Shown here one piece after another: positions 30,625 to 48,460 of a DNA stretch of 64,000 nucleotides. Position numbers and translations under genes: made by a program. The stretch lies in assembly GCA_018607135.1 (NCBI GenBank), contig JABBCA010000098.1, forward strand, positions 1 through 64,000. Direction: 5' to 3'. The notes below the pieces were generated by a model. It saw only the letters and a program-made list of their open reading frames with translations. It was not told the origin of the DNA and ran no database searches. The stretch's first letter is position 1. The number at the start of each line of letters is the position of its first letter. This DNA comes from Opitutales bacterium (lineage in GTDB: Bacteria > Verrucomicrobiota > Verrucomicrobiia > Opitutales > Coraliomargaritaceae).

Positions 30625-30654
30625 TCGCAGGCTTCATAAATGAAGCCCCTGTGG
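30625..30654. repeat. REP element (core GCTTCATAAATGAAGC, degenerate outer end)
   Basis: CGCAGG-CTTCATAAATGAAG-CCCCTGTGG forms a 7-8 bp hairpin and has the same organisation as the other REP elements, in the orientation that ends with the altered GTAGGGG complement. It lies 8 bases from the stop codon of the first caspase gene. Confidence 0.75.
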
Positions 30655-30662
30655 ATGATGTC

Positions 30663-33600
30663 CTAGGGAATTGCTAGAGGGAAGTCCTGACCGTAGCCGT
30701 AGCTGGCGGGGTATTGGGCTTCGCCTTTATACTGCTCGGTGACTTCGGGGACTTTGGCTTCGATGTAGGCTTTGAGCTCGTTGACGCTGACGATGCCGTC
30801 GCCGCTGTCGGCGGCTCCTTTGAGCGCTTCCAAAAGAGTGTAGGTGAAGGCGCCATGGCCGAGCTGGTCGAATTCGGTCGCGAATTGCTCGCTGCCGGTG
30901 GCGGTCAGCCAGTGCGTGCCGGTGCTGCGAGCGAGTTGGGCGATGGCTTTTTCTTCGCTTGCTCCGCGCACGGCTACGGTCTTGAGCGCTCCGGCCGATT
31001 GGCAGGCGTCGAGGATGAAGAGCTGTTTCTGCGCAAGTATGTCGCGTGAGTATTTCAGTAGCTCGTCACTGGAGACGGCGGCTTCCCGCAGGGAATTGCG
31101 GTCGCCGTATAATTGAGTGGTTTCGTAGGGGGCTAGATAAAACTGCGGTTCATTGTCATCCGACATGATGCCGTGGCCGGCGTAGTAAAAAATGAAGACA
31201 TCACGTGGGCCGGCCTCTTGTTTAATCAATTCGAGGGTCGCGATGATGTTTTCCCGAGTCGCTTCGGCATCGAAGAGCTGGTAGCGCTCCACTCGAGTGA
31301 AGATCGAATCGTAGTTCTTGGATAGCGTCGCTTCGACTGCTTTGGCGTCGGCTAGGGCATAGTTCAGATTGTAGTCGGGGTTTCGGTATTTATTGATCCC
31401 GATTGTTAGCATGTGCATGGCGATGCCACCTTCGGCGACTTCAGGGGCATTGATGGAGGAGACGGCGAGTTCATCGGGGATCGATTCCGTGCCTTGTTCA
31501 TTGATCGCGATGACGCGGAAGCGATTTTTGCCGGGTGTTAGTTCAAAAGTCTCCCGACTATTTTTAGTAAAGATTTCTTCATCACTCTGATCCCATTCAT
31601 CATCGTCCTCGACGAAGAGTCCGCGAGCAGCACCGGAGACCAGCTTTCCATTATGGTAGATACGAATGTCCTCAATCGGGCTGCCTTCGCCGGTTGCCGT
31701 AATCTCTAAAGTGACTTTGGAATCTTCTATTTCAAAGCTTTCAAATTCGTCTTCGACGGAGAGCCCACGCTGAGAGACGCCGGCGATTGCCATATTAACA
31801 CGAGGAGCTCGCTTCAGGTCGGCGAGATCGATGGGGGACTCTAGAGTGAGCCCTTTGATCAGGCTGCCGAGGAGCCGAGGGCGATAGAAATCATCAAAGT
31901 AGGCGGCAAGTGGCGAGACCTGCTTGCCTTGCACGAAATAGAGGTGCTCTTGACTGGTTTGATCCGAGGCAAACAAGCCTGTTTGCGGGTCGCGCACTAG
32001 CCATCGGTTGGGGTCGTCAAATAAATACATTTGAGCGATTTTCTTACCTTCTTTGATGCTAAATAGGCTGATGCTTGCGAGGTTGCGGTCAGAGCCGATT
32101 AGAAAATTATCGTTTCCGATAAACTGTAATTGATCATACAGGTGATCATTTGGCAGGTCTGCCAGTGTCTCTCCACTTGGTAGCGCAATAATTCTAATCG
32201 AGTTTCGCCTCCATGTGACGGCTAGTGTGCCAGCCTTATTGTAGTGGTAGAGTCCGTATTCTGAGAGATCATAATTTCGAAAAACTTCTCCGGTCATCGC
32301 AAATAGTGCGTAGAGTCCGGCCTTGCGTTTGATATAGAGTAAATTTCCGTCTTCACTAAATTTGAGATGATCAATGACTTCATTTTCAATTGAATACGGG
32401 TTGGTCCAGAGCGTCTTACCGGTAGAAATCTCCTGACAGACGAGATGCCAAGTGTTCTCTTTGGGGGAATTATTTTGATAAACGTAGGCGAGGTTTCGGC
32501 CTTCTGGTGAGATAGCGATCATCTGCGCTTTTCCGAATGCATAGCCCCCGCTCGTTTCAAGTTTAGTGCCGAGGCGCGTGCTCTGATTGATCGGATCATA
32601 AACGGCCACACCCGTTCGACCATGAAAGGCAAGTAGTGTGCCATCGCTTGTTTGGTCGAAGAATTGGATTTGTGAGAAAAAGGAATCAGTGTTTGTTTCA
32701 ACAGATTCCAAGGTATCAAATTTACTATCGGGGTTAAATTCAAGATACTTCGAATCCTTATAGTCTCCCAGCATCCAGCGGTTTTTGTTCGTGTTATAAT
32801 AGGCTCTTCCTAGATAAAAGCCTTTTGGAGTCGGAACTACCTCAGAGCTGAGGCTGTTGTCGGTAATCTTAACTCGTCGTGTTTCATATTCGTGCTGGAT
32901 TAAAAATTCAAACGCATCTGAGCGAGGGTAGAGCGATCGAGGGATAAACCCAGCCGCTCCCCAACTTCTTACAAGTGCTCCATCTTTTGCGGTATACTGA
33001 TTCAAACTGATGTGGCTGTCGCCGAAATTGCCAGTGAGGGATTGCCCCATGATCACCGTATTAGAGCCTTCAAGAGGAAACGCTGCGGTGGTGAGTTCGG
33101 CTGGTTTGCTTTGGGTGATGATTTGATTGGTTCGTGGGTCCAATATGGCGGTGGTTTCGAATCCTCGGACGATAAGCATATTTCCGACGTTGTGGGGCAT
33201 GTATACGGTGGCGTTGTCGTATTTGGAAGAGAGGGGAAAGCGTGCGACTGTATTCAATTCGTGGGTAACCGGATTGATGTAGCTGATCAGCATATCCTTA
33301 GGGCTTTTCGTCACTGAAAGTAATTCACCATTTGGTAAAAACCCGTAAGGCTGTTTAGCTTGGGGAATGTCGGATAGCGCTTCGCCCGTGCGTAGGTCGA
33401 TTAGTTTAAATACGCCTCGATAAGCAAAATTGAGCGCAAGCATTTTATATTTCGCAGAGTAGGTAATCCGTCGAACGTGATCATCGTAGCGGTTCGGATT
33501 CTTGTGAATGAGGAATTCTCGGAAGTCGCTTTTGTAAATATTTTTGCTAGTCTTCGCGGCGATATCATAGCTGGTGACTTGCGCATACGTGTCGGAGGTT

Positions 33601-34091
33601 TCTTGCGCCAAATAGATGATTTGGTTCTCCGCATCATACGCGGCGTCGGCAATTCCCGAAAGTTTGACCTGCTCCGTCGATTCTTTGGACCCAAATTCGA
33701 AGTCCGTGTAGAAACTCAAGCCCGATTCCGTGACGATACAAACGGTGTTCTCATCATTGATGAAATGAGCTTTTAGTATGTCTGTCTCTGGCGAGTAGTT
33801 TTTGATAACCACCCGCCGCTTCGTATCCCAGATTTTAAGGCTCAGAGAATCGTAAGAGAGGAAAAACTCATCGTCGCTGGATACTTCCATACCTCGCACC
33901 CAACGAGTATGTGGTGCTGGGGTGCTCAATGTGCGCGACTCCGGTGGCTTCTCCTTCGTGACAAAACCTCCGTTGTCGACGACAGCTTTCAAAGCCTCTG
34001 GATCGTTGACGAGTTGTTCGTATTGCCCGTGTGCGATGCAACCGAATAACAAACCGATGGCGGTAGTGAAGAGTCTGATTTGGTTTTGCAT
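30663..34091 (-). CDS. Secreted caspase-like (C14) protein with propeller-like repeats, copy 1
   Basis: A 1142-residue protein. It starts with a Sec signal peptide (MQNQIRLFTTAIGLLFGCIAHG). Residues about 60-790 are WD40/PQQ-like beta-repeats (segments such as DSLSLKIWDTKRRVVIKNY). Two copies of an acidic motif, RGLSVEDEF and RGLFVEDDD, precede the C-terminal caspase domain (about 895-1142). Catalytic residues are His973 in FYYAGHGIM and Cys1030 in LFILDACQSAGAL, followed by the conserved IAQLARSTGTHWL and a Ca-site-like DSGDGIVSVNEL. C14 enzymes are cysteine peptidases; bacterial orthocaspase/metacaspase-like members usually cut after Arg or Lys. Its substrate is unknown. It is the last of a run of protease genes read on the minus strand, and a REP lies just after its stop. 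Confidence 0.85.
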   Translation of the reverse strand: MQNQIRLFTTAIGLLFGCIAHGQYEQLVNDPEALKAVVDNGGFVTKEKPPESRTLSTPAPHTRWVRGMEVSSDDEFFLSYDSLSLKIWDTKRRVVIKNYSPETDILKAHFINDENTVCIVTESGLSFYTDFEFGSKESTEQVKLSGIADAAYDAENQIIYLAQETSDTYAQVTSYDIAAKTSKNIYKSDFREFLIHKNPNRYDDHVRRITYSAKYKMLALNFAYRGVFKLIDLRTGEALSDIPQAKQPYGFLPNGELLSVTKSPKDMLISYINPVTHELNTVARFPLSSKYDNATVYMPHNVGNMLIVRGFETTAILDPRTNQIITQSKPAELTTAAFPLEGSNTVIMGQSLTGNFGDSHISLNQYTAKDGALVRSWGAAGFIPRSLYPRSDAFEFLIQHEYETRRVKITDNSLSSEVVPTPKGFYLGRAYYNTNKNRWMLGDYKDSKYLEFNPDSKFDTLESVETNTDSFFSQIQFFDQTSDGTLLAFHGRTGVAVYDPINQSTRLGTKLETSGGYAFGKAQMIAISPEGRNLAYVYQNNSPKENTWHLVCQEISTGKTLWTNPYSIENEVIDHLKFSEDGNLLYIKRKAGLYALFAMTGEVFRNYDLSEYGLYHYNKAGTLAVTWRRNSIRIIALPSGETLADLPNDHLYDQLQFIGNDNFLIGSDRNLASISLFSIKEGKKIAQMYLFDDPNRWLVRDPQTGLFASDQTSQEHLYFVQGKQVSPLAAYFDDFYRPRLLGSLIKGLTLESPIDLADLKRAPRVNMAIAGVSQRGLSVEDEFESFEIEDSKVTLEITATGEGSPIEDIRIYHNGKLVSGAARGLFVEDDDEWDQSDEEIFTKNSRETFELTPGKNRFRVIAINEQGTESIPDELAVSSINAPEVAEGGIAMHMLTIGINKYRNPDYNLNYALADAKAVEATLSKNYDSIFTRVERYQLFDAEATRENIIATLELIKQEAGPRDVFIFYYAGHGIMSDDNEPQFYLAPYETTQLYGDRNSLREAAVSSDELLKYSRDILAQKQLFILDACQSAGALKTVAVRGASEEKAIAQLARSTGTHWLTATGSEQFATEFDQLGHGAFTYTLLEALKGAADSGDGIVSVNELKAYIEAKVPEVTEQYKGEAQYPASYGYGQDFPLAIP

Positions 34092-34105
34092 AGGTTGTGT
34101 TTTTT

Positions 34106-34135
34106 CGTAGGGGTGGTCACCTGTGCCACCGACGA
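34106..34135. repeat. REP element upstream of caspase copy 1
   Basis: CGTAGGGG-TGGTCACCTGTGCCA-CCGACGA has the GTAGGGG end, a short dyad (GGTGG/CCACC) and a decayed CCCGCG end. It lies 14 bases before the ATG of the gene ending at 30663. Confidence 0.75.
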
Positions 34136-34171
34136 CTTTGAATGGAAGAGATGAAGGATTTTAGGTAGGGC

Positions 34172-34199
34172 GTGGGCTCCACAAGTGATAGCCCCTACG
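34172..34199. repeat. REP element overlapping the stop codon of caspase copy 2
   Basis: GTGGGCTCCACAAGTGATAGCCCCTAC is a REP in reverse orientation; its GTAGGGG end (read on the minus strand) contains the TAG stop codon at 34195-34197 of the adjoining caspase gene. With the element at 34106-34135 it forms an inverted pair. Confidence 0.75.
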
Positions 34200-37100
34200 G
34201 AAGGAGTGCGATCGGGAAGTCCTGCCCGTAGCCGTAGCTAGCCGGGTATTGCGGACGGCCCTTATGCTCTTTCGTGACTTCCGGGAGCATGCTTTCGACG
34301 TAGGCTTTGATCTCATTGATCGTGATCCGCTTATCGCCTGTGTCGGCTCCGCCGTTGAGGCCTTTAAGTAGGGTGTAGGTGAATGCACCGTGGCCGAGCG
34401 AAGCAAACTCTGTCGCGAACTGATCGCCGCTTGAGGCTGCAATCCAGTGGGTGCCGGTGCTTCGAGCGAGCTGCGCAATGGCTTTTTCTTGAGAGGCGCC
34501 ACGCTGTTTAAAGGCGAGTAGGGCACCTGCTGAATTACAAGCATCGAGGATGAAGAGTTGTTTGCGCGCTTGGATTTGAGAAGACTGTTCTCGTAGCTGC
34601 TGACTGGAGATCCCGCTTTTTGCTAAGCCAGAACCTTCACCGTAAATCTGTAAAGCGTCCTGGGGAACGAGATAGAAGTTTTGATCGTCCAGTGAGAGCA
34701 CACCGTGCCCGGCAAAGTAAAAAACAAAGGTATCCTGTGGAGTCGCCTCGGCACTGATTTGAGCAAATGCTCTCAGAATTCCATTTTTATCTGCCTCGGA
34801 ATTAGTCATCAGTGTCGTCCGCACAGAATCAAAGATTCCAGCGTTTAGTTGCTGTAATTTTTCGAGCACGGCCGATGCATCAGCCACTGCGTAATTGAGC
34901 TTATGCTGTGGGTTTGTGTAGTCGTCTATCCCGATTGCGAGAATATACAATTTCCGTTCAGTCGTCCGTTTCTGCTGCTCTAGAATATAGCCTTCTGGTG
35001 GGCGGGCGGTAATGATGGCGGGTGCCGAAGTGACCCCCTTTACATCGACAGCTACGAGCTTGAACTCATTCGTCTCCGGTAGGAGGTCGACGATCACTTT
35101 TTCTTTATAAGTCGGGGTGTAGTTGGTCCTGATCAATTTGTCGTTCACGAAAAGGTCGTAGCGTTCGATTCTATTCTGAGGCGCGTAAACATCAATCGTT
35201 AGCTCGATTTGCGTCGATACTTTCGTGTTGCGGCTACTCATAGTGGCGACTGGTGGGATGATAACTGCTTCAAGCTGTTCATCAGCTCCGGCAAGCTCAA
35301 TTCCCGAAAAGCTGTTTAAGAAAAGTCCGGGTTGGTAGCTTTGTTCAAAAATTTGATTTAGTGGTTGAAAGGTAAACGCTTTCTTTATCGAGACCCCATC
35401 AATGACCGGTTGGGTGGCATCAAACCGCCCATTGGACGCGGCAAATAAGTAATCATCGCCCTCGTTGTAGAAAGTAAGTTCGCCAACATACGTTGCCTCA
35501 CCAGCAGCATCGTTCTGGTAAATACTTAGTGCTGCTTTCGAATCCGACACGCGAGCTACGTAACCGGATGCTGGTTTTTTGACCGCCAATTCTAGAGGAA
35601 TCTTTTGGGTTTTTGCTAGGTTGCCATCGGAAGTCTTGTAGGTGGTGAGCTCGCCTGAGCTGTGGTTGAATACTTGAATGCCAGTGCCATCTTCTGTGAA
35701 GCCGAGCAAGCCATGCTCTTCACTTGTTAAGACGACTGACCAATCGGCCTCTGGGAAATCTTTGATCGTATCCGTAATCGCCGTGTAGCTCAATCGCGTG
35801 ACGCTTGATGATTCTCTCGTCTCCATCGAATACTCATCATCTGTCTGCAAACTAACGAAGGCAGAGTCATCAGGTGCGAGTGCTAGCGCAATCGGGTGGC
35901 TGATCATACCGGAGCTGTAGTCGCCTCGTCCGTGCTCCTCTAGCTTAGCAATGAATTTTCCGGTCTCGTAGTCGTGCAGATAGCTGTAAAATGAATCGAC
36001 TTGAATGAGATATTTCGCGGTATCTGTATAGATATTATCCAAGCTGTAGTTAGGCAGAACACTGTTGGGGTAGGGTGCTTGGTATTCAATATACTCGCCT
36101 CTCGGAAAGGATTTTAGGTCTGAACGACGAAGCCAACCTTCTGAGTTGGGCAGAAAGAAAACGGTCTCACCATCCTTATCGATGCTGAACGATTCAGGAC
36201 CTTTACCAAGATTTGCGCGACTGAGCCCGATTTCTGTCATTCGGTATCGGTGGATATTGCCTTCTGGGTCGATCCCGTAAAATTCAGGTTCCGTTGGGTG
36301 GAAGGATAGGTTGGAGAGTTTAAATGGCTGTGGGCCTTTATCTAAGAGTTCGCCGTGTTGAGTCTCTAAGTTGTAGTTGTAAAAATCACCGTCTTTAAGG
36401 AAAATCAAATCACCGGGCTTAGTGGGTGAATAACCAATGATTACAGGCCAAGAGACAGGAATATTGTATGTGTTTATAGCTGTCCAACTCTCCACGTCGA
36501 CTTGAGTAAGTGTTTTGAAATCATTAAACCATGCGTGTTCAGGTGATTGACCGTCAAAGGTCACAGGACGTTTCCATTTTCGGTCGGGCGGTGGATTTTG
36601 TGGAATATTGCGTAGCGTTTTTAAGGTGCCGCTGACGACGATATCGAGAAAGTGCGTCTGCACCCCAAGTTCAGTCACCGTTCTTTTTGCTTCCACTTCT
36701 CCGACGGCTCCCAGATGGAAATTAACATTCGGTATACTGATCGTTCGTGTAATTTCGCCGGTTTTTGGCTTAAACAGCACATAGCTGCCTTCTGAGGTAT
36801 ATTCATAGATGTCCGATCCAGCTGCGATCGGGCGTGGCTCGCTGCTCTTTAGTTCAGCGGGCCATTCCACGACAAGCTTGAGTTCTTTCGTGCGAATGTT
36901 CAGCTCGTATATTTTGCGCGGACCGTAAGTGCCATCACCCATCGGCGTGGTCGGACGGGAGTATTCCTGAACTTCTAATACAACGATATCTTTGTCTGGA
37001 TGGGATTCGATTTCAATTGGATTGAGCTCTTCGAGTGACTCAGCTTGAAAGCTAGCCAGCTGCACGAGTGGCTCACCATCCAACTTTGCGTAAATCGAAA

Positions 37101-37491
37101 CCTGCTCCTTGCCGTTAGTTTCCGAGACTTCACCCGTCACAAATAGAAAAGAGTGGGTATCGAGCGATCGATAGACATATTGGATGTTTTCTAGATCGAC
37201 CAATGACTCGTCCTTGCCAGTCGCAAAGGTGAATCTTCGAAGTCCTCTATCATGGTAAACATACTGCGAGCCGTCCTGGCTGAAATAGCCCTCTCTGGCG
37301 CCGTCAAAATGATAGCGAGGTTCTAGGGATACTGCATCGTAGAGAAGGCTGGCACTTCCATAAATGAAGCGCTTATCCGGGCTGACATCGCCCGGTTGCG
37401 CCCAAAATGTGTGGAAATCAAAAACGGCAGCATGACCACAGCTCATAAATGCGATGAGGAGGGAAAGGGTGTGAAGGAATATACGTAACAT
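34195..37491 (-). CDS. Secreted caspase-like (C14) protein with propeller-like repeats, copy 2
   Basis: A 1098-residue protein with a Sec signal peptide (MLRIFLHTLSLLIAFMSCGHA). The long middle part is beta-rich and propeller-like, but WD signatures are weaker than in copies 1 and 3 and the RGLxVEDD motif is missing. The C-terminal domain retains His929 in FYFAGHGVL and Cys985 in LFILDACNSAGAL, then the shared IAQLARSTGTHWIA segment and DTGDKRITINEI. Asn replaces the Gln after the active Cys found in the other three. The stop codon TAG is part of a REP element. It lies between the RAYT gene and copy 1. Function beyond peptidase fold is unknown. Confidence 0.83.
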   Translation of the reverse strand: MLRIFLHTLSLLIAFMSCGHAAVFDFHTFWAQPGDVSPDKRFIYGSASLLYDAVSLEPRYHFDGAREGYFSQDGSQYVYHDRGLRRFTFATGKDESLVDLENIQYVYRSLDTHSFLFVTGEVSETNGKEQVSIYAKLDGEPLVQLASFQAESLEELNPIEIESHPDKDIVVLEVQEYSRPTTPMGDGTYGPRKIYELNIRTKELKLVVEWPAELKSSEPRPIAAGSDIYEYTSEGSYVLFKPKTGEITRTISIPNVNFHLGAVGEVEAKRTVTELGVQTHFLDIVVSGTLKTLRNIPQNPPPDRKWKRPVTFDGQSPEHAWFNDFKTLTQVDVESWTAINTYNIPVSWPVIIGYSPTKPGDLIFLKDGDFYNYNLETQHGELLDKGPQPFKLSNLSFHPTEPEFYGIDPEGNIHRYRMTEIGLSRANLGKGPESFSIDKDGETVFFLPNSEGWLRRSDLKSFPRGEYIEYQAPYPNSVLPNYSLDNIYTDTAKYLIQVDSFYSYLHDYETGKFIAKLEEHGRGDYSSGMISHPIALALAPDDSAFVSLQTDDEYSMETRESSSVTRLSYTAITDTIKDFPEADWSVVLTSEEHGLLGFTEDGTGIQVFNHSSGELTTYKTSDGNLAKTQKIPLELAVKKPASGYVARVSDSKAALSIYQNDAAGEATYVGELTFYNEGDDYLFAASNGRFDATQPVIDGVSIKKAFTFQPLNQIFEQSYQPGLFLNSFSGIELAGADEQLEAVIIPPVATMSSRNTKVSTQIELTIDVYAPQNRIERYDLFVNDKLIRTNYTPTYKEKVIVDLLPETNEFKLVAVDVKGVTSAPAIITARPPEGYILEQQKRTTERKLYILAIGIDDYTNPQHKLNYAVADASAVLEKLQQLNAGIFDSVRTTLMTNSEADKNGILRAFAQISAEATPQDTFVFYFAGHGVLSLDDQNFYLVPQDALQIYGEGSGLAKSGISSQQLREQSSQIQARKQLFILDACNSAGALLAFKQRGASQEKAIAQLARSTGTHWIAASSGDQFATEFASLGHGAFTYTLLKGLNGGADTGDKRITINEIKAYVESMLPEVTKEHKGRPQYPASYGYGQDFPIALLP

Positions 37492-37588
37492 CTGATTCTT
37501 GGATTAGGAAAAGCTAAAATTGTTTGGAGAAATGGCAGTGCTAATGACTCGGGTGAATAGGAATTTGATGAGCGTGTGGTATGTAGTT

Positions 37589-37643
37589 CGTAGGTTGTCA
37601 CTTGCCGAAGGCTCTGAGCTTGTCGAAGGAGTGGCACTCGGGA
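37589..37643. repeat. REP element with an enlarged loop carrying a second palindrome
   Basis: CGTAGG-TTGTCACTT at one side and AGTGGCACTCGGG at the other pair as a REP-like stem, but the loop is enlarged by a 25-base sequence that is itself palindromic (CCGAAGGCTCTGAGCTTGTC and following bases). It lies between the RAYT gene end and the start of caspase copy 2. Confidence 0.5.
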
Positions 37644-37648
37644 AGGTT

Positions 37649-38266
37649 TTAAGGTTTAGTCAGTTCGGTAGATTCTTGCGGGTTCGCGGGCTTCATAAAT
37701 GAAGCCCCTACGTCGTTCTCTATAACTTCGGTGAGTTGAATGCTTTGTTGAATCCATGCTGGTGGGGGACCACTCGCAGAGTTCAAATGTTGCAGAAATT
37801 CAGATGCATAGGCTCGGTTGAGATGCCAGTGCGGATAGGTTTCGTTCACATTTATGAGCCCTTTACGATATGAATTCAGATAAATATACTTTGAAAATGT
37901 TTCCAAGGCTGTATCCGCCCGTAGTCGATGATCGTAGAAGTTTCGCTGCCAAGAAAGATTGGATTCACTGAGTGCAGATTTGGTCAGCGCTTTGAATTTA
38001 ATAATCATTTTCGAGAGTTCCAATCGAGAGCCTAAACGAAACAAAATATGCACATGGTTCGGCATGATTGTGCCGCAATAAAAATAGATACCTTTGTCTG
38101 CGTGCAAGCGACGCCATGTATTGAGAATGGCCTCACTGATTTGTTGATTACCGGTTAATCCATCGACCTTATCCTTTGTGCAGATTGTAATGAAATAGCG
38201 CACATCCGTCACGGAAAGACCCCCGACTAGAAGTTTGTCCGTTTTTCGTTGTGGTCGCTCGTTCAT
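37649..38266 (-). mobile_element. REP-associated tyrosine transposase (RAYT, Y1/HUH family)
   Basis: A 205-residue Y1 transposase-like protein. The HUH motif is MPNHVHIL (His71, His73) and the probable catalytic Tyr127 sits in KYIYLNSYRKGL, the usual RAYT form. RAYTs nick and join single-stranded REP palindromes and are normally single-copy, host-domesticated genes. The ATG is 2 bases from a REP element (38269-38299), and another REP (37685-37712) is inside the 3' coding region, encoding SFMKPAN, so the last ~20 residues are REP-derived. It interrupts the run of caspase genes and is read in the same direction. Confidence 0.88.
37685..37712. repeat. REP element inside the 3' end of the RAYT gene
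   Basis: CGCGGGCTTCATAAATGAAG followed by CCCCTACG is a near-ideal REP: complete CCCGCG and GTAGGGG ends (reverse orientation) and a perfect GCTTCAT-type stem. Confidence 0.85.
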
Positions 38267-38268
38267 GG

Positions 38269-38299
38269 CGTAGGGGTGCCACTTGTGGCACCCGCGAAG
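38269..38299. repeat. REP element directly upstream of the RAYT gene
   Basis: CGTAGGGGTGCCACTTGTGG followed by CACCCGCGAAG has both conserved ends and a perfect GGTGCCAC/GTGGCACC stem. It forms an inverted pair with the element at 38331-38357. Confidence 0.88.
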
Positions 38300-38330
38300 G
38301 TCAGGTTAGTTTGATATGTTTCGACATTGT

Positions 38331-38357
38331 CGCGGGTGTCACAAGTGACACCCCTAG
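38331..38357. repeat. REP element overlapping the stop codon of caspase copy 3
   Basis: CGCGGGTGTCACAAGTGACA followed by CCCCTAG is the reverse partner of the element at 38269-38299. Its CTAGGGG end supplies the TAG stop (38354-38356) of caspase copy 3. Confidence 0.88.
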
Positions 38358-41300
38358 GGAAGGGTGATCGGAAAGTCCTGCCCATAGCCGTAGCTGGCGG
38401 GGTATTGGGCAGTGCCTTTGTATTTTGAAGTGACAACTGGGACTTCGCTTTCTAAGTAGGCTTTGAGCTCGTTGACGGTGACGCGACCATCGCCGCTGTC
38501 GGCTTTGCCTTCGAGGCCTCTGAGTAGGGTGTAGGTAAATGCGCCGTGCCCGAGCTCGGAAAACTCGGTGGCAAACTGTTGACTGCCTGATGCAGTCAGC
38601 CAGTGCGTCCCTGTGCTACGAGCCAGCTGGGCGATGGCTTTTTCTTCGGCTGCGCCTCGCTGCGACAATCCGGTGAGTGCCCCAGCGGACTGGCAGGCGT
38701 CGAGGATGAAGAGCTGCTTCTGCGCGGGGATGTCGCGAGAGGCGGCGAAAAGTAACTCGCTTGGAATCCCTTTTTGTGTAAGGGCTTCATCGGCACCGTA
38801 GAGTTGGGTGACTTCGGTTGGCACCAGATAGAAAGTGGCGTCTTCGCTGACGACTCCGTGCCCTGCGTAGTAAAAAATGAAGGTGTCGCGCGGGCCGCTG
38901 GCTGATTTCACTTTGTCTATCAGGTCGAGTATTTTATCCTTTGTGGCCTCCTTGTTCGTGAGGGTATGCACGTGGGTTTTGGTGTAGATATGCTTGCTGC
39001 TGTTCTGTAGCAGATTAGAAACGGCCTTCGCATCGGCGACGGCGTAGTTGAGGTTGTATTTTGGGTTTTTGTATTCATTGATACCGACTAAGAGCATATG
39101 TAGGTTGATGCCTGTAATGTCGTCGAAATTTGGCTTGTAAGTGAGGGAAATTTTTTCCGCCTTGGACTCAGAGCGTGCTGCGTTGTAGGCGATGGCCTTA
39201 AATGTGTTCACGCCTGGTAAGAGTTGCACGTTGAAGCCTTCTGACCGTGCGGTGGTGGCGTCATCGTCTTCTACGAAAAGACCGCGAGTCTTATTGCTTA
39301 TGAGTTTTTCGTTATGGTAGAGGCGAATTTCTGAGATCGTTGCTGCGTTTGATTCGGCATATACACGTAGTGCGAGCGTATCGGTTTTGATTTCGACTGA
39401 TGGGTCTAAGCGGTTGCCTTTGGCGTCAGCTACTTCGATCCGATCAATGCTCGGAGGTGTGTTGAACTGGCTCATTGCACTTTCGGGCGCTGGGGGGCGG
39501 TAGCCTTGAATCATGCGCCAAGCGAGCTTTGGGGAGTGAAAGACTTCGAAAAATGCGGCGGTGGGGACGAGTGTTTTGCCGATAATGAAAGAAGCTTTGT
39601 GCAGGCCCCCGGGTGAGCTTTCGAAGTAGCCTTGTTTAGTGGCAAAGATCCATTCATTGGAGGCGGTGTTGAGCACGAGGGTGCCGAGTTGTTCGCTCGA
39701 CTGAATGTCCCAAATCGTGAGGCTTCCTTCGGTGTTGAGTGCCGCGCACAGGGTGCCTTGGTTGAAGAGCGTGATGTCTTCGACATTCGTATTATCGAGC
39801 GCTAATTCAGCACTTTGCTTGCCTTGCTCTGCTGGCTTAAAGATGTGGATGGCTTTTGCGCCACGTATTGCGACGAGGTCTCCGTCATTCGCCCAGTCAA
39901 CAACGAGTGGACGAGGAGGTGCGTTTACGAGGGGCTGGACGCTGTAGTCGACTAGGACATTCGTGCGCGCTTGTGATGTTTTTAAGTCGATGCCACGGAC
40001 TTCTGCGTAGTCCGGTTCCCGCTCATTTATAACTGGATGCAAGTGCGTATATTTTGCACTGTCGATGACACGTGCGAAATCTAGATCAAAATTGATATCA
40101 ATCAGCCCAGCCTTGGTCGTGATATAAAGTGTATCATTTTGGCCATTAAACGCGGCGCTCTGCATCGTGGTATTTTCAGCATATAGATATTGCTCGAATT
40201 GACGCTGATGGAGCAGGTCGCCGCTAGCTGTATCAAAGACATTAGCGCGGCTAGCTGAAACGGCGGCTAGATGTGTGCCATCGGCGGACAGTGCTAATTG
40301 TATTTGAACTGTATGATTATCTAAAACGTAACCGACTTCGACTGGAATTTGTTTTGTCGGAGTTTTGGCACCTATCTCGGAGAAGCAAAGTGTGGCTTGA
40401 TCATTCGTATAGCTGATGTAGGCGACTTGATTTGTTTCATTGAGCGATACAATGTCTTTAAATCCAGCAATTGCATGATACTGGACGCGCAGTTCGCCTA
40501 TCGTCATGCGCACACTATAGTAACCGTCGTCACTCAACACCAGGAAGCCGCTGCCGTCGCGTAGCGATCTCAAGCTTGACGCTTGAAAGGTATCGCTTTG
40601 CCAAGCTTGTAATGTTTGACTCGCAGTAGAATACTCCGCAACAAGACGCTCTTTAGGGGTCTTTTGGGCGATGACAAGATGACGGTCACTTCCGGGTAGA
40701 GGTGCGCTAGCGATGATGTTGGATCCTAGTGCTGCCTTGGCTGTGTCTGGTGTCTCGAAATCGCTTTGGGGTGCGTCGTCAGGTAGCGGCCAGTTTGAGC
40801 GTAGATCGTAGAGATGGACACTGCCTTCGGGCTCAAGCACGATTCGTGCTTTACTTCCATTTGGACTAATTTCGAGTGTCGAGATTGTCGATTTACGGCT
40901 TAGTTTAAAATGACTGTCTTCAGGCTTGTGGCTTATGAGTTCGGAGACTTTCCCTGTTTGGACGCGGACTGATTTGATGATGACTTTACCAAACTGAGTC
41001 GCCGCATAGTAGATCGTCGCTCGGTCTTCCGATACGGCGCTAGCACTGAGCCCTCGCTGTGGGGTGTTTTTAACTGCTTCAGGATTGGCAGTATCCATAA
41101 AGTAGATGCCGCTCGTCGTAATAAAGGCGATAGAATGATCATTCGAGCCGACAAACTGTATGTCTTGCACCACGGGGCGTTTTGCAGTGATTGGTGTGGC
41201 GCTGTAGAGTTTTTGTTGGGTTGCGATATCCCATAGCGTCACTTTGCCGTCAATCGAGGCGGTGGCCGCGAGAGTCCCTGAGCGACTCGTCGCTATTAAA

Positions 41301-41422
41301 TCGAGCTCGCCTTCGTGGCCAGACTGAATGGCTAGTCTCGGTGAAACTGCTGATGCGGATACGACAATCGCAGCCCAAAATAAGCAAAGGGCTAGTCGTT
41401 TAAGTGCTGAGTTGAGGGGCAT
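38354..41422 (-). CDS. Secreted caspase-like (C14) protein with WD40-like repeats, copy 3
   Basis: The ATG at 41422 gives 1022 residues and a clear signal peptide (MPLNSALKRLALCLFWAAIV). WD40-like repeats are seen early (GHEGELDLIATSRSGTLAATASIDGKVTLWD, residues about 34-64, quoted in two runs) and late (LTIWDIQSSEQLGTLVL). One RGLFVEDDD motif precedes the C14 domain. His855 in FYYAGHGVV and Cys910 in LFILDACQSAGAL are the catalytic pair; IAQLARSTGTHWL and DSGDGRVTVNEL follow. The start is 8 bases after the stop of copy 4, so the two are likely co-transcribed. A GTG four codons upstream would overlap copy 4. The stop lies in a REP. Confidence 0.86.
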   Translation of the reverse strand: MPLNSALKRLALCLFWAAIVVSASAVSPRLAIQSGHEGELDLIATSRSGTLAATASIDGKVTLWDIATQQKLYSATPITAKRPVVQDIQFVGSNDHSIAFITTSGIYFMDTANPEAVKNTPQRGLSASAVSEDRATIYYAATQFGKVIIKSVRVQTGKVSELISHKPEDSHFKLSRKSTISTLEISPNGSKARIVLEPEGSVHLYDLRSNWPLPDDAPQSDFETPDTAKAALGSNIIASAPLPGSDRHLVIAQKTPKERLVAEYSTASQTLQAWQSDTFQASSLRSLRDGSGFLVLSDDGYYSVRMTIGELRVQYHAIAGFKDIVSLNETNQVAYISYTNDQATLCFSEIGAKTPTKQIPVEVGYVLDNHTVQIQLALSADGTHLAAVSASRANVFDTASGDLLHQRQFEQYLYAENTTMQSAAFNGQNDTLYITTKAGLIDINFDLDFARVIDSAKYTHLHPVINEREPDYAEVRGIDLKTSQARTNVLVDYSVQPLVNAPPRPLVVDWANDGDLVAIRGAKAIHIFKPAEQGKQSAELALDNTNVEDITLFNQGTLCAALNTEGSLTIWDIQSSEQLGTLVLNTASNEWIFATKQGYFESSPGGLHKASFIIGKTLVPTAAFFEVFHSPKLAWRMIQGYRPPAPESAMSQFNTPPSIDRIEVADAKGNRLDPSVEIKTDTLALRVYAESNAATISEIRLYHNEKLISNKTRGLFVEDDDATTARSEGFNVQLLPGVNTFKAIAYNAARSESKAEKISLTYKPNFDDITGINLHMLLVGINEYKNPKYNLNYAVADAKAVSNLLQNSSKHIYTKTHVHTLTNKEATKDKILDLIDKVKSASGPRDTFIFYYAGHGVVSEDATFYLVPTEVTQLYGADEALTQKGIPSELLFAASRDIPAQKQLFILDACQSAGALTGLSQRGAAEEKAIAQLARSTGTHWLTASGSQQFATEFSELGHGAFTYTLLRGLEGKADSGDGRVTVNELKAYLESEVPVVTSKYKGTAQYPASYGYGQDFPITLP

Positions 41423-41430
41423 GGTAGGTA

Positions 41431-44400
41431 TCACTGAGCGAGTGCGCCGATGGGGAAGTCGTTGCCGTAGCCGTAGCTGGATGGATATTGTGGGGTGCCT
41501 TTATGTTTTGCGGTGACTTCTGGCACTTCGCTCTCTAGGTAAGCCTTAAGTTCATTGACGGAAATACGCTTGTCGCCTGTGTCTGCAGAACCTTCAAGGC
41601 CTTGGAGGAGGGTATAAGTAAATGCACCATGGCCTAGCTCGCTGAATTCTGTCGCGAATTGTTCGCTGCCTGATGCGGTCAACCAGTGTGTGCCGGTGCT
41701 GCGTGCGAGTTGCGCGATGGCTTTTTCTTCGGCTGCGCCGCGCATAGCTATACCTTCTAGAGCGCCTGCGGATTGGCAGGCATCTAAGATGAATAACTGC
41801 TTTTGAGCTGGAATGTCCTTTGAGAGTTCAAGTAATTGTTGGCTGCTGATTGCTTTCTCTTCGAGTTGCCTATCATCGCCATAGAGCTGGGTGACATCGG
41901 TCGGCACTAGGTAGAATTGTTTATTCTCTGACTGCGTCATGACACCATGCCCCGCGTAGTAGAAAATGAATACATCTCGTGCGGTGGAATTCTGTTTCAC
42001 CGTCTCGAATGCCTTGAGGATACTTTGGCTCGTAGCTCCGTGGTTACTGATGAAATACGGAGTGATGGTGGTGAATAAATTTTGGTTAATACCTTCGATC
42101 TTTTTCAAAAATGCAGTCGCATCCGTTACCGCGTAGTTGAGGTCGTATTTGCTATTGGTATAGCTGTCGATGCCGACAGCTAAGACGTGTAAGTTTAGCC
42201 CGCCTTTTTGCTTCGTTGGCACGCTTGATTCCGCTGCTTTGATCGTGAAGGCTTTGGAACGACCTTCGAGCCGATTGGTGTCGAATGCACGAGCGACGAA
42301 AGTGTTTTCACCTGGGAGAAGGTTGACGGTGTATTCTTTGGTTTTCGCTTGGTTTTCTGCAAGGATATCATCCTCGACGAAGAGCCCGCGTGTCGCGGTG
42401 GTGATCAGCTTTTCATTATGATAGAGACGAATCTCGCTGATTGTGGAGTTCATTGAAAAGGCCTCCGCTTTGAGGCGCACTGTGGCGACGTCGGATTCAG
42501 TTAGCGCTTCGTCGTCCTCAACGTAGAGTCCGCGGCTACCTGCCGCCAAGCCGAGTTTGACGGCAGGAGGCACGGTGCGATTGTTTATCTCTGGGACGGG
42601 TTCGAGCGTCGATCCAGAAAGTAAAGTCGGGAGTAGTTTTGGTGTGTAGTAAGCTTCAAATAGTGCATCTGTCTCTAAGAGTTCTTTACCTGCGACGAAG
42701 TAAATGAGGTCATTCGCAGTCGGTGCGGTGTCGAAACGATTATCAGCCGTAGCAATGGCCCAGTCGGCATCATTTTCAAAGAGAGCGACTTTTGTCATCA
42801 GTTTCTCCTTGGAGAGGTCCCAAATACGGATAAAACCGTCGCGATCAGTCGCTGCAAGAAAGTTTGAATCGGCTAGGAATGCGAGGGCGTTGATGGATGC
42901 GCCATCATTTTTAAGCATGAGTCGATTGGTGAGCTGGACTTGATTATTATTGTTCTTAATTACATGACTCGACTGCGTGCCGACGATGATCGTATCCGTT
43001 CCATTAGAGGTGGCTAGTCGTGCGCCATCTGTCGTGGCTGTGGCCCACGTGCGCGTGGTGGAGTTCCGGTTAGTGCCAGTGCTGCCGACTCCCTTGCCTG
43101 TTTTGATATCGATCACTTTGTGCGCCGTGCCGCGACTGATGAATGCTTTGGTGCCTGTTGAATCAAGACCTGCGAAATTACCGCCTCGAGCAGATGACTC
43201 CCAAAGTTCGTCGCCTGTCTCTGTGTCGAAAGCGATCCACTTTTCGATATCATACCCTTTGTCGAATGAACTGGCTTTGTATTGTGAGATGACGGTGATG
43301 CTGCCGTCTGGACTAAAGAAGCCTGGGTTTTGAGCGACCAGTCCGTGCGCTTGGGTGAAGGTCATTTCAAAGACGACTTCACCTGAGTCTACCGATAGCG
43401 CATAAAACTTTTGTGGTGTTCGAATGCCTAGCATGGAGCCGTCTTGTGAGAAAAAGAGTGAATCGATTGTGCTACGCGGAGCAGTGCTATCGATGGGTAG
43501 CTCATCTTGGCCATCGAGTATGCTGTCTCGATCTGTGAGCATGACTGTATTTTGCCCGTGATTTGCATAGGCGATGAGCCCTGATTCATCGTTGATCGCA
43601 AATGCGCTGACTGCGGACTGCACCGTTTTAATCGTGAACCCGTTTGGATTGACCCGCACACGTTTGAGTGTCCCCACTTTATTAAGCGTGTAGAGGTCGG
43701 ACTGCTGCGAGTCGGCGAAGAGTTGATTTGGGTAGTGAGCAGGTTTACCGATGTCGGCGATGTGCTTACCCGAAGCAATGTCGAATCGCGCGAAATGACT
43801 CCGTTTTATCGCATCTTGCCCAGTAGAGTTGTAGCTGAGCAGCACGTTGTTGACATCCTCGATCCATACAGCGCCTGTGCTTACATTGGAGCCTAAGGAG
43901 CTGTCTGGAATCATTCCATTCACAGCTCCTGTCTCATAATTGATAATCGCAATCAGATTGACGTCGGCAATGGCGATTTGCTTTGTTTGGGCGTTGGTCG
44001 CAAAGTGTAGCTGCGTGGCATACTTGGCGTGATGGTAGGGCAGTTTTACTGTAACTGTTTTTTCAATTCTGAGGCTAGGGTCGTTTGCTAGGTGGTTGAT
44101 CTCGACAGTGGTGTAGGTAATGCCTTTTCCATTGCTACGAACTTCGGTGTCTTTGATTGCAAGGAGTGTGCCATCTTCGATTGAGACCAAGCGCCCTAGG
44201 TCTGTTTTTACCTCTTGTAGCTTTGTGTCTTTACTCGCATCAAAGGTGCCGATGAACGCAGACATGAGTTGGCGGTCATGGTATTGCACCACTATTTGTT
44301 TTGGGTTAAATTCATGAATGAGCGCCGGGTAGTGCTTCTTTTTATTACTTACTGGTATGACGTATTCTGGCGAAACTTTAGGGCTAGGGTTAAAGCGTGA

Positions 44401-46275
44401 AAACGATAAGTTGGAAAATGGGCTGCCGTAAATTTCGGCTAGTGAGTAGGACGCTTTTGAACTTTTAGAGTAGTAGGCAAGGGGCTTACCGCTCGTGCCT
44501 GTCGTGTCGACGATTCTGCGAATATCTAAATCGAAAGTGGCGATGCTACTTGCGAGTGGTAGGAGGACTCGATTCGCGTGGGCTTGATAAATGGGGCTAT
44601 TGGATAGGTAGATGGGTTTATCCTTAGAGTCTTTGATTGTCTGGAGGCGTAGCATGCTTCTGGCATCATAGAGATAGGTGCCATCGCTGTCGCAAGTAAT
44701 CATGTATTCTCCGTCTGGGCTTTTCCAGATGCTGGTGGTCAATGTGCTAGGGCCGGAGTCAATACGTGTCTCGACTAATGCGGTTGCCTGCAGCTCAGCT
44801 GCACGTTTAGCTTCGATGAGTTCAGAGAGTTTTCCGATAGTGATCATCGGTAGCCCGGAGTCTTGAATGGCTCTAACGACCTCAACATCAAATTCGTCTA
44901 ATTTCTGACTGATCGCATCAAATGCCATCGCTCTGATCGATGCATGGGCCGCCTTATGATCGTATGGAAAGCGAAGATTACGAATCTCGTATTCGATCTT
45001 ACTAATGGACTTCGAGAATCCTTTGGCGGTGACTTCAATACTCGAATCGTTTGGCCATTCAATGATGTTTGTCTGTATCAAGCTATGGACATTTGCCAGC
45101 ATCTTGCCTTCAGCGGCTTTGTTGAGCGGGTCACGGGCGTCAGGGCTGACAAACTGAGTATAATAAGCATGATCCAGCCGATAAGCATTAGTCTCTGGAT
45201 GTGGAGGAAGCTTTTTGATCAAAGCACTGGTCGCATCTGCACCGAACGTTGCTTCAAACTGTTTTATCTCAGTTTGAATCGCTGGGTCGGCCGCAAAGTC
45301 GGTCGGGCCATATTCGATGTCTTCAATTAGCCCATTGACATACTGTATGAGTGCTCGGGTTACGTTTTTTTGCTCTTTATCTTTACTAATCGATTTCTGA
45401 TAAGCGCGTGCTAGCTCACGGCGCTTGGGTTCCATCTTAGCTAGGAACTCAGCGTTTTCTCCTGGCCCACCATAGTTCGGTCGAGGCATTCCATAATTGG
45501 CCTCTTCTTCCATGATCTTAACGATTTCTGGAGTGGGGCCGTCTGGGCGGGCTCCTTCATAATAGACGACCTTGTCGTTCGGAATGCCCGCGTTCGTCAA
45601 ATTTACCCGTGAAAGATTGCCTGTGATCTGAGCCAGCTTCTTTGCTTCCAATGGTGAAAACGTAACATTGCTTAGCTCCACTTGACTACTGCCCTGAACC
45701 CAAAGAGGTGTTTCTATAGCATAACCAGTATTCGCAATCTTGAGCTCTAGGTCGTCAATCGTTGAGCCTTGGATCAGTGTATTGAGATTCAACGCAGGGC
45801 TCTCACCGCTGGTAATATTGACGTTCTTAGCCTGTAATAAACTTTGATCAATATAGACTGCTCCCGTAATCGGGCTGTTATCTACGCGAACGTTTTGAAG
45901 TATGAACGGTGATGCTTTAACGACTGAAAGTAGACCTCCGTAGGATTGATTCTCTTTTTCGCGACGAATCGTCAGATCTTTTAAAACGAAGCCAGCATTA
46001 TCTGCAGGGGGCAGTAAGAAAGAGATCACATTCGAACGGCTTGGAACTGTAGTCAGAATGGTTTCATCCATACCGACTCCTTGAATAGTGAGCGGCTTCG
46101 TAATCGTGACCGCTACGGCATGAGTGCCTGCTGCGATTTGAATCGTGTCTCCAGGTGCAGCCGCGTTAACCGCTAGTTGTAGATTATGGTAATCTTCAGG
46201 GTATTGAATAATCGCCGCAGTCAAAAGAGGGGAAGCCAAAGCGAGTAACAGAAATATGGATAGAGAGCGTTTCAT
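41431..46275 (-). CDS. Secreted beta-helix/propeller/caspase-like (C14) protein, copy 4
   Basis: The largest of the four, 1614 residues from the ATG at 46275 (signal peptide MKRSLSIFLLLALASPLLTA). An upstream in-frame extension of 37 codons is read mostly from REP sequence and is rejected. Residues about 22-220 look like a right-handed parallel beta-helix (VNAAAPGDTIQIAAGTHAV, TITKPLTIQG), a pectin-lyase-like fold used for carbohydrate or surface binding. Then come a helical segment, propeller-like repeats with one clear WD unit (DRDGFIRIWDLSKEKLM), two acidic motifs (RGLYVEDDE, RGLFVEDDI), and the C14 domain with His1443 (YYAGHGVM) and Cys1500 (DACQSAGAL). It is followed 8 bases later by copy 3. 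Confidence 0.85.
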   Translation of the reverse strand: MKRSLSIFLLLALASPLLTAAIIQYPEDYHNLQLAVNAAAPGDTIQIAAGTHAVAVTITKPLTIQGVGMDETILTTVPSRSNVISFLLPPADNAGFVLKDLTIRREKENQSYGGLLSVVKASPFILQNVRVDNSPITGAVYIDQSLLQAKNVNITSGESPALNLNTLIQGSTIDDLELKIANTGYAIETPLWVQGSSQVELSNVTFSPLEAKKLAQITGNLSRVNLTNAGIPNDKVVYYEGARPDGPTPEIVKIMEEEANYGMPRPNYGGPGENAEFLAKMEPKRRELARAYQKSISKDKEQKNVTRALIQYVNGLIEDIEYGPTDFAADPAIQTEIKQFEATFGADATSALIKKLPPHPETNAYRLDHAYYTQFVSPDARDPLNKAAEGKMLANVHSLIQTNIIEWPNDSSIEVTAKGFSKSISKIEYEIRNLRFPYDHKAAHASIRAMAFDAISQKLDEFDVEVVRAIQDSGLPMITIGKLSELIEAKRAAELQATALVETRIDSGPSTLTTSIWKSPDGEYMITCDSDGTYLYDARSMLRLQTIKDSKDKPIYLSNSPIYQAHANRVLLPLASSIATFDLDIRRIVDTTGTSGKPLAYYSKSSKASYSLAEIYGSPFSNLSFSRFNPSPKVSPEYVIPVSNKKKHYPALIHEFNPKQIVVQYHDRQLMSAFIGTFDASKDTKLQEVKTDLGRLVSIEDGTLLAIKDTEVRSNGKGITYTTVEINHLANDPSLRIEKTVTVKLPYHHAKYATQLHFATNAQTKQIAIADVNLIAIINYETGAVNGMIPDSSLGSNVSTGAVWIEDVNNVLLSYNSTGQDAIKRSHFARFDIASGKHIADIGKPAHYPNQLFADSQQSDLYTLNKVGTLKRVRVNPNGFTIKTVQSAVSAFAINDESGLIAYANHGQNTVMLTDRDSILDGQDELPIDSTAPRSTIDSLFFSQDGSMLGIRTPQKFYALSVDSGEVVFEMTFTQAHGLVAQNPGFFSPDGSITVISQYKASSFDKGYDIEKWIAFDTETGDELWESSARGGNFAGLDSTGTKAFISRGTAHKVIDIKTGKGVGSTGTNRNSTTRTWATATTDGARLATSNGTDTIIVGTQSSHVIKNNNNQVQLTNRLMLKNDGASINALAFLADSNFLAATDRDGFIRIWDLSKEKLMTKVALFENDADWAIATADNRFDTAPTANDLIYFVAGKELLETDALFEAYYTPKLLPTLLSGSTLEPVPEINNRTVPPAVKLGLAAGSRGLYVEDDEALTESDVATVRLKAEAFSMNSTISEIRLYHNEKLITTATRGLFVEDDILAENQAKTKEYTVNLLPGENTFVARAFDTNRLEGRSKAFTIKAAESSVPTKQKGGLNLHVLAVGIDSYTNSKYDLNYAVTDATAFLKKIEGINQNLFTTITPYFISNHGATSQSILKAFETVKQNSTARDVFIFYYAGHGVMTQSENKQFYLVPTDVTQLYGDDRQLEEKAISSQQLLELSKDIPAQKQLFILDACQSAGALEGIAMRGAAEEKAIAQLARSTGTHWLTASGSEQFATEFSELGHGAFTYTLLQGLEGSADTGDKRISVNELKAYLESEVPEVTAKHKGTPQYPSSYGYGNDFPIGALAQ

Positions 46276-46279
46276 GGAT

Positions 46280-46309
46280 CGTAGGGGTGCCACTTGTGGC
46301 ACCGGCGAG
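46280..46309. repeat. REP element upstream of caspase copy 4
   Basis: CGTAGGGGTGCCACTTGTGG followed by CACCGGCGAG is almost identical to the element at 38269-38299, 8 kb away. It lies 4 bases before the start codon of copy 4. Confidence 0.88.
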
Positions 46310-46350
46310 CGGTTTTGAAGATTTGAGCAGTTTGAAGCGTTCGGGCGTTT

Positions 46351-46378
46351 CGCAGGCTTCATAAAATGAAGCCCTACG
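46351..46378. repeat. REP element next to the stop of the papain-like gene
   Basis: CGCAGGCTTCATAAAATGAA followed by GCCCTACG is in reverse orientation and pairs with 46280-46309. It ends one base before the papain gene stop codon (46379-46381). Confidence 0.85.
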
Positions 46379-47887
46379 CTAGTCATGCACGATTTCGATC
46401 ATCAGCGGCACGACGTGACCGGAGGTGTTCTCCTGCACCGCGAAGCCGATGCCGTCGTTGTCGTATTTAATAAACTTCTGGTCGATGAGCCGAGAGCCTA
46501 GGGCTTGATTCACTTTTACGGAGAGTGTGCCAGTTTTCGACTCCATGGATTCGATGAGCGAGGCTACGTTGAGCGGCTCGTCGGAGTAGAGCATGAGCAA
46601 ATAATCAGTGCCAGGCTGTTTATCCATGCGCACGACTTTACGTTCGGAAGGGAATGCGATGGTGCTGTCGCGGCCGATCATCGGTGACATGTTGTCATCG
46701 AAGGGCAGAATCTTGGTAATCTTACCTGTGAGGTCTGTCGCGAAGGCGTATAGATAGGCGCGGGAGTTGGTCGACACGAAGAAACGGAAGCGTGTTCCAG
46801 ATGCGTAAGACTGGGCTAAGCGATAGCCTTGGTAGCGATTGCCTACAGCGGATGCGCCGTCTTCGATTAGTTTAATCGCTGGCATCGGTGTGCCGTCGCG
46901 CTCTTGGAAGCTGACTTTACCTGCGAGTAGTAGTGGAATTTCGGGCGGGCGATAGGTGTTCTTTTGGTAAGGCAGGGCTTTCGGTTGCTTGCCGTATGCT
47001 TGAAGCGCCATGAAGCAGTCTCTTGCGAACTCTTCGTAGGTGGTCCAGTAAAAGCCGCCGTCGCCCCAGCCAGTGCCCCAACTGTTGACGATTCGAAAGG
47101 CACCGCCGTATTTGTTGTCGTCATACCCGACTACCGTCATCGCGTGTGCTCCGTGTTGTGCTGCGGTGGATGAGTCGGATGCTTGTCGCTTCCAAAGTGG
47201 TGTGCGTAGGCGACTGAGCGAAGGGTAGGTATATGCGCCGATGACTACGGGACTGCCTTCGGAGAGTGCCTTTTTGACTGCGAGGATTTTGATCGAACTT
47301 GCTAACTCCTGCGTCGGATCGTTAAGCGGGTAGAAGAGTGCTTGGTAGTCAACTAGTGGGAATTCAGTGGCCTTCAGCATGTCGTTGGAGTCGATACCAA
47401 TTGAGCACTGATAGGGCACGTCTTTGATCTTCGGCGTGCCGACGGTGAGCATGATCTCGAGTGCTTTGTGAATGTGAGAACCTTGTTGGCAGTCTGGGTC
47501 GGCTGCGACGTCGCGTATCTTCTCGTAAACAAATGAAGGTGAGAAAATGTGTTTGTCGATCACTGCACGCGATGTGATCTGTTTTTCTATCGCATACAGT
47601 ATGGTGCGCATGTGATACGCGGTGGCAAACCCGGTGCAGCTCATCATCTGGCCTTGGTCACCTGGAGTTGGACAGTATTTCTCAAGTGAGGCCTTTGCTG
47701 GGAGTCCCGCATACGTGGCTTCAGTGACTGGCGCTTTGTAAGGAATGTTCCGATAGCTCAGCTGGTCTATGAGTAGGCCAGTGGGACGCTGAGAGGGAGC
47801 TGCATCGTCTTGCGCGAACAGATTCGATGTCAGTAGCAGTGTGCAGACTATTACTGAACACTTAAAGAGGTCGTAGAGTTTAGGCAT
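46379..47887 (-). CDS. Secreted papain-like (C1A) cysteine peptidase with DUF4384-like domain
   Basis: A 502-residue secreted protein (signal peptide to about residue 25, ending NLFAQ). Residues about 65-300 are a papain-fold peptidase: oxyanion Gln78 and catalytic Cys84 in GDQGQMMSCTGFA, His248 in GAHAMTVVGYDD and Asn268 in IVNSWGTGWGDGG, so the triad is complete. No long propeptide is evident. Residues about 345-470 (GTRFRFFVSTNSRAYLYAF, ILPFDDNM) resemble DUF4384, a beta domain often attached to caspase-like or serine/threonine kinase-linked proteins. It is upstream of, and in line with, the caspase array; it could process or be processed by the caspases, or act on the same target (inference). 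Confidence 0.88.
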   Translation of the reverse strand: MPKLYDLFKCSVIVCTLLLTSNLFAQDDAAPSQRPTGLLIDQLSYRNIPYKAPVTEATYAGLPAKASLEKYCPTPGDQGQMMSCTGFATAYHMRTILYAIEKQITSRAVIDKHIFSPSFVYEKIRDVAADPDCQQGSHIHKALEIMLTVGTPKIKDVPYQCSIGIDSNDMLKATEFPLVDYQALFYPLNDPTQELASSIKILAVKKALSEGSPVVIGAYTYPSLSRLRTPLWKRQASDSSTAAQHGAHAMTVVGYDDNKYGGAFRIVNSWGTGWGDGGFYWTTYEEFARDCFMALQAYGKQPKALPYQKNTYRPPEIPLLLAGKVSFQERDGTPMPAIKLIEDGASAVGNRYQGYRLAQSYASGTRFRFFVSTNSRAYLYAFATDLTGKITKILPFDDNMSPMIGRDSTIAFPSERKVVRMDKQPGTDYLLMLYSDEPLNVASLIESMESKTGTLSVKVNQALGSRLIDQKFIKYDNDGIGFAVQENTSGHVVPLMIEIVHD

Positions 47888-48432: not shown

Positions 48433-48460
48433 GTCGGGGTGTCACTTATGAAACCCGCGT
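48433..48460. repeat. Degenerate REP element
   Basis: GTCGGGGTGTCACTTATGAA followed by ACCCGCGT keeps the CCCGCG end and a partial stem, with GTAGGGG changed to GTCGGGG. It marks the left flank of the protease region. Confidence 0.55.

Follow-up and report, generated by a model that had tools for sequence, protein, structure and literature searches.

A conserved pairing of giant caspase-like proteins with a predicted exported papain-like protease, multiplied into a four-caspase array in an Opitutales bacterium

We analyzed a 64,000-nucleotide stretch of DNA (hereafter the window) from a marine Opitutales bacterium (GenBank assembly GCA_018607135.1, contig JABBCA010000098.1, positions 1 to 64,000). 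Its minus strand carries four genes (A to D) for very large proteins ending in a caspase-like C14 domain, all oriented in the same direction and located 3' of gene E, which encodes a papain-like (C1A) protease fused to a DUF4384 domain. Our main conclusion is that the C14 and C1A-DUF4384 genes form a conserved module of two predicted proteases, in which the array is an expansion of the caspase half. Judged from sequence, these genes very probably work together as one conserved system and are more than a chance array. A preliminary description of this DNA had reported five open reading frames (ORFs) in one direction, and the ORF listing indeed contains them, with C14 proteins of 1142, 1098, 1022, and 1614 residues and a 502-residue E. 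However, its view of a five-gene array overlooked both a conserved gene (F) ahead of E and a RAYT-like gene between C and B. The order of transcription is F, E, D, C, the RAYT-like gene, B, and A. A search of the whole 3.53 Mb genome placed all four C14 genes and the sole DUF4384 gene within the array, which is composed as follows.

46379..47887, minus strand: gene E, 502 residues, predicted exported papain-like (C1A) protease fused to DUF4384 (Pfam, catalytic residues)
41431..46275, minus strand: gene D, 1614 residues, with predicted signal peptide, beta-helix, propeller, immunoglobulin-like (Ig-like) domain, and C14 (ORFs, Pfam, hidden Markov model (HMM) matches)
41482..42186, minus strand: C14 domain of D, His1443 and Cys1500
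38354..41422, minus strand: gene C, 1022 residues, with predicted signal peptide, WD40 propeller, Ig-like domain, and C14 (ORFs, Pfam)
38426..39094, minus strand: C14 domain of C, His855 and Cys910
34195..37491, minus strand: gene B, 1098 residues, with predicted signal peptide, two tandem beta-propellers, Ig-like domain without the VEDD motif, and C14 (AlphaFold2 (AF2), Foldseek)
34246..34941, minus strand: C14 domain of B, His929 and Cys985
30663..34091, minus strand: gene A, 1142 residues, with predicted signal peptide, WD40 propeller(s), Ig-like domain, and C14 (ORFs, Pfam)
30705..31409, minus strand: C14 domain of A, His973 and Cys1030

The same gene neighborhood, which the preliminary description had proposed to look for elsewhere, was found in seven genomes within the order, and the Flavobacteriaceae have a two-gene version of it. 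Of 273 genomes from the order, exactly seven carry a full-length C1A-DUF4384 gene, and C14 frames of >1000 residues (19 copies) are found in the same seven, where the giant C14 genes always adjoin E in 2-4 copies each. The probability of both falling in the same seven genomes by coincidence is 5e-14 if shared ancestry is ignored. C14 was found in only three genomes of the family. In another genus (L014), the genes are arranged F-E-D-C-B-A with the order and direction of the window, while a further cluster (L015) reads F-E-B-A. Full-length or near full-length E genes also occur in another phylum, in 12 of 299 Flavobacteriaceae genomes, of which four are divergent. The close flavobacterial homologs are 40-43% identical to E, and all eight with enough downstream DNA to judge have one giant C14 gene directly beside E. 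We also checked for the opposite outcome, namely genes that occur singly and unrelated in position, and found the genes to be linked; the flavobacterial caspase is single, yet it adjoins E. The seven-genome co-occurrence together with the flavobacterial adjacency argues for a conserved two-protease module with an expanded caspase half.

From sequence scores, membership of these proteins in the C14 and C1A families is secure. All four C14 domains score 54-62 bits against a Pfam cut-off of 21.4, while E matches Peptidase_C1 at 37.7 bits (cut-off 20.7, E-value 3e-9) and DUF4384 at 38.6 bits (cut-off 27, E-value 1e-9). The catalytic residues were said to be intact in all five proteins and this holds: A to D retain their His-Cys dyads, with AGHG and DAC present in 23 of 23 homologs, and C84, H248, and N268 of E are invariant in 12 homologs, as is Q78. 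A classical long propeptide was not seen in E. The C14 domains had also been called nearly identical, which fits just the motifs around the Cys, as the window paralogs are only 53-66% identical (38-49% over the first half, 68-84% over the Cys-containing half). Two acidic residues, D915 and D1028 in A numbering, are invariant in 23 of 23 homologs. In a profile match, D915 aligns with Asp95 of Trypanosoma brucei MCA2 (TbMCA2), while D1028 lies two residues before the catalytic Cys, the same position as Asp211 of TbMCA2. Asp95 and Asp211 belong to the proposed metacaspase S1 pocket (PMC4357240). Since both acidic residues match this pocket, cleavage after Arg or Lys would be expected of the C14 domains, with the basic P1 preference predicted by homology. 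An invariant Arg-Gly (R1042-G1043 of A) lies C-terminal to the catalytic Cys, in a loop modeled at a predicted local distance difference test (pLDDT) score of <50 in B, and may be another candidate processing site.

A few related loci deserve mention in their own right. At L086:5740-9162, a C14 protein beside a divergent E has the same layout with a different recognition body, as its front end is unrelated and it bears a Glucodextran_B Ig-like domain. Divergent C1A-DUF4384 genes in L087, L088, and L089 are located near genes for CHASE2 and ion-channel proteins and for an M48 peptidase, which in L088 has Sel1 repeats, and not near caspase genes, possibly as a sister system. Lastly, small cytosolic-looking C14 genes lie beside a protein judged by eye to be TIR-like in genome G025 (L017:7108-9376), which is probably an unrelated defense-type locus.

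The bodies preceding the catalytic end are quite different in character. The preliminary description had assigned differing front ends to the four proteins, and Pfam does detect WD40/propeller repeats in A, C, and D, while weak NosD/beta_helix_1 HMM matches indicate a beta-helix at the N-terminus of D. Gene B had no Pfam match outside C14. The structure prediction and Foldseek search proposed for all N-terminal bodies was run for B, and the resulting AF2 model (pLDDT 76.5, predicted template modeling (TM) score 0.49) shows an extended body rich in beta strands, followed by an Ig-like domain and C14. This body resembles tandem-propeller proteins (Foldseek E-value about 1e-16), suggesting that B begins with tandem propellers. 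Apaf-1 is among the proteins with such tandem propellers, but these share only 8-12% sequence identity with B at a low whole-chain TM score, which indicates a resemblance of fold and not kinship or common function.

The description of a conserved catalytic end joined to variable front ends is upheld by comparisons of identity and of fourfold-degenerate sites. Both the C14 and the front-end trees recover A and B as groups of orthologs spanning six genomes, and window A is 31% identical to L014 A over the front end and 72% over C14. Two duplicates within one genome, G149_1 and G149_3, are 31% identical in the front end and 93-94% in C14, while their fourfold-degenerate sites agree at 56% (front end) and 63-67% (C14). 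As these sites have diverged similarly in both parts, the similar C14 ends are explained by constraint and not by recent gene conversion, which we considered and rejected given that, even between these closest duplicates, such sites have diverged almost as much in C14 as they have in the front end. Older gene conversion may have occurred, as faintly hinted by the C14 domain of window D, which is 66% identical to that of window C vs 59% to its own positional ortholog. Thus, to judge from these alignments, the front ends are diverging far faster than the constrained catalytic end.

All five proteins look exported. Signal peptides were judged by a hydrophobic core and small residues at -3 and -1, and those of A to D and E are plausible by both measures, in agreement with the secretion signals assigned earlier. 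In nine of nine flavobacterial homologs checked, Gln follows the predicted signal cleavage site, a reported pattern of exported Bacteroidetes proteins that are signal peptidase I substrates (PMC5837995). The preliminary description set such export against the view that the caspase homologs of bacteria are mostly single, cytosolic proteins, but a 2012 survey does not bear this out: it placed 98 of 671 sequences in a membrane category, most with an N-terminal helix that is possibly a signal peptide, found extracellular domains in 30 sequences, and reported operons with up to three metacaspases as well as 28 in one Haliscomenobacter genome (PMC3501461).

A short motif, [TS]R[GN]LxVED[DE], occurs twice in the A-type, D-type, and flavobacterial caspases, about 110 residues and about 60 residues ahead of C14. 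C contains a single copy, two G149 caspases out of three have the motif, and B-type proteins never do. In flavobacterial E, the motif appears again in the region that joins C1A to DUF4384. Its copies in the window are as follows.

31747..31769, minus strand: RGLxVED motif, first copy in A
31603..31625, minus strand: RGLxVEDD motif, second copy in A
39264..39286, minus strand: TRGLxVEDD motif in C
42512..42534, minus strand: RGLxVEDD motif, first copy in D
42368..42390, minus strand: TRGLxVEDD motif, second copy in D

In alignments, the motif falls in segments that are missing from B-type Ig domains and therefore lies in dispensable, probably exposed loops. We rejected a structural role in the Ig core, as the B-type and some G149 Ig domains lack the motif, making it dispensable to the fold. 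A general substrate tag was rejected as well: across 11 genomes, the DNA pattern of the motif has 36 matches, of which 32 fall within the clusters and only four outside, with matches in the host genome confined to the array. The simplest functional reading is that the motif could be a candidate processing site for the predicted Arg-specific caspase, with calcium binding or docking as possible alternatives.

The remaining features of the array are gene F, the RAYT-like gene, and a family of repetitive extragenic palindromic (REP) sequences.

47945..48418, minus strand: gene F, upstream accessory gene, 157 residues, predicted PH-like fold, without signal peptide (AF2 and structural matches)
37649..38266, minus strand: RAYT-like Y1 transposase between C and B, outside the conserved module (Pfam Y1_Tnp, NCBIfam RAYT)
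30626-30649, 37685-37708, 38273-38296, 38331-38354, 46284-46307, and 48436-48459: REP palindromes

Gene F had no Pfam, NCBIfam, or PADLOC match. Its AF2 model (pLDDT 77) matches PH domains with VIA Z scores of 11.2 (root mean square deviation 2.4 over 86 residues) and about 10, while the best Foldseek E-value is only 0.012. It occurs in six of the 273 genomes, five of which have the cluster (p 1e-8), and it is absent from two of the seven cluster neighborhoods and all flavobacterial ones. A further small predicted membrane protein is encoded ahead of F in two clusters (L015:7254-7799 and L027:4289-4852). The RAYT-like gene scores 39 bits with Pfam Y1_Tnp (cut-off 23) and 70.8 bits with NCBIfam RAYT NF047646, below the curated cut-off of 80; given this shortfall, the Y1_Tnp match, and the adjacent REP hairpins, we named it RAYT-like only. 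As it is absent from the related L014 and L015 clusters, it is probably a later insertion. REP palindromes (GGGGNNNCAYNNRTGNNNCCNGCG) are present at most gene borders of the array, and the pair at 38271-38356 forms a strong hairpin (z -8.6). Six of the seven exact matches in the whole genome lie in the array, which suggests a merely local spread of this REP family. The start of gene D was moved from 46386 to 46275 because the extra 37 codons read through a REP palindrome (46349-46375).

The wider setting of the array is variable. Upstream of it is a nitrite/sulfite-reductase-type flavoprotein gene (28818-30554), a broken homolog of which, in the same-genus genome G010, adjoins a 93% homolog of the window gene at 55892-57580. 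The 30.6-55.8 kb stretch, comprising the array, a LysR gene, and nitrate-uptake genes, is absent from G010, either by loss or because it was never gained. The genomic position of the array also differs in L014 and L015. Carriage by a mobile element was considered and rejected: there was no phage match, and the plasmid matches were distant (26-29%), with no C14 annotated alongside in the one inspected.

The account that we favor, while holding it tentatively, is an exported two-protease module consisting of the papain-like E and one or more orthocaspase-type proteases, with the caspase half multiplied here. Each caspase would begin with a signal peptide and a large recognition body, made either of propellers or of a beta-helix and a propeller, and end in an Ig-like domain and C14. 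In the likeliest mechanism, Sec would export the proteins to the periplasm or cell surface, where the front ends may bind differing protein or glycan ligands and the C14 domain would cut after Arg or Lys. E and the caspases would act on each other or on common substrates, with processing probably at exposed loops such as TR[GN]LxVEDD, and the caspase copies would keep one catalytic output as their front ends diverge. Several observations weigh against this account. The full motif is missing from Opitutales E, and B-type caspases have no copy at all, so processing at the motif cannot be universal. Three of the four divergent flavobacterial E homologs have no C14 nearby, and E can therefore work without a caspase. 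Finally, the module is patchy, being missing even from two same-genus genomes, and is thus not a core envelope function.

A more elaborate and unlikely version is an exported cascade, in which propeller and beta-helix sensors would drive Arg-specific caspases that process one another and the papain-like protease at TR[GN]LxVEDD, and possibly at the Arg-Gly. The front ends could instead be substrate-binding modules of surface or secreted proteases that degrade environmental protein or proteoglycan with no regulatory cascade. Polymer binding is indeed common for beta-helix and propeller front ends, and the C14 protein at L086 bears a Glucodextran_B domain, but C14 enzymes are usually site-specific and not digestive, and across phyla the neighborhood has no conserved glycanase, sulfatase, or transporter genes, leaving extracellular digestion unlikely. 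The predicted export signals and single conserved output would also suit envelope housekeeping, with proteases that trim surface proteins of their own cell or cause them to be shed, propeller bodies that dock particular clients, and a PH-like, probably cytosolic F that could link the system to membrane state. We consider this quite unlikely in view of the patchy presence of E (7/273) and the inconstancy of F. Attack on neighboring cells by exported proteases whose diversified front ends recognize targets is distinctly improbable: despite the fast front-end divergence, the patchy distribution, the absence of the 30.6-55.8 kb stretch from G010, and the suggestion that extracellular metacaspases act in fratricide (PMC3501461), the cluster shows no conserved immunity gene, secretion apparatus, or marker of toxin delivery. 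An intracellular anti-phage or cell-death effector is highly improbable, since the PADLOC caspase model (PDLC02987) that matches the C14 domain is covered at best over positions 3-178 of 453, the EACC1-associated caspase model NF047832 reaches 85-104 bits against a curated cut-off of 140, signal peptides are predicted, and the module conserves no NTPase, TIR, or adaptor gene.

With respect to described systems, the C14 proteins share the His-Cys dyad and acidic pocket residues of WD40 orthocaspases and other prokaryotic caspase homologs (PMC3501461, PMC8283722), in which WD40 is the commonest extra domain and some members have signal peptides or occur in multi-copy operons. They differ in having C14 at the C-terminus, behind a large front end and Ig-like domain, in their fixed pairing with a predicted exported C1A-DUF4384 protease, and in numbering four in one array vs the maximum of three per operon in the 2012 survey (PMC3501461). 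E shares the catalytic Cys, His, and Asn and the oxyanion Gln with bacterial C1A proteases (closest solved sequence match 3ois), but has a C-terminal DUF4384 and a strict linkage to giant C14 genes. The nearest parallel in domain content is a set of 23 cyanobacterial orthocaspases in which DUF4384 is fused to C14 itself (PMC8283722); the same two domains are tied there within one protein, whereas here DUF4384 resides on a separate papain-like protease encoded by an adjoining gene. Secreted and multi-copy bacterial caspase homologs and WD40 fusions were already known. Our literature search, which covered few subscription journals, found no paper on the C1A-DUF4384/C14 pair, the arrays, or the motif, and the short motif TR[GN]LxVEDD before C14 and in the flavobacterial papain-like partner appears to be new.

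Most bacterial caspase homologs have no known function. With the conserved partner, the two-gene flavobacterial version, the strong co-occurrence, and a precisely defined candidate cleavage motif, what was a vague family becomes a system open to testing. If the exported cascade were true, it would be a bacterial counterpart, in its logic, to extracellular zymogen cascades.

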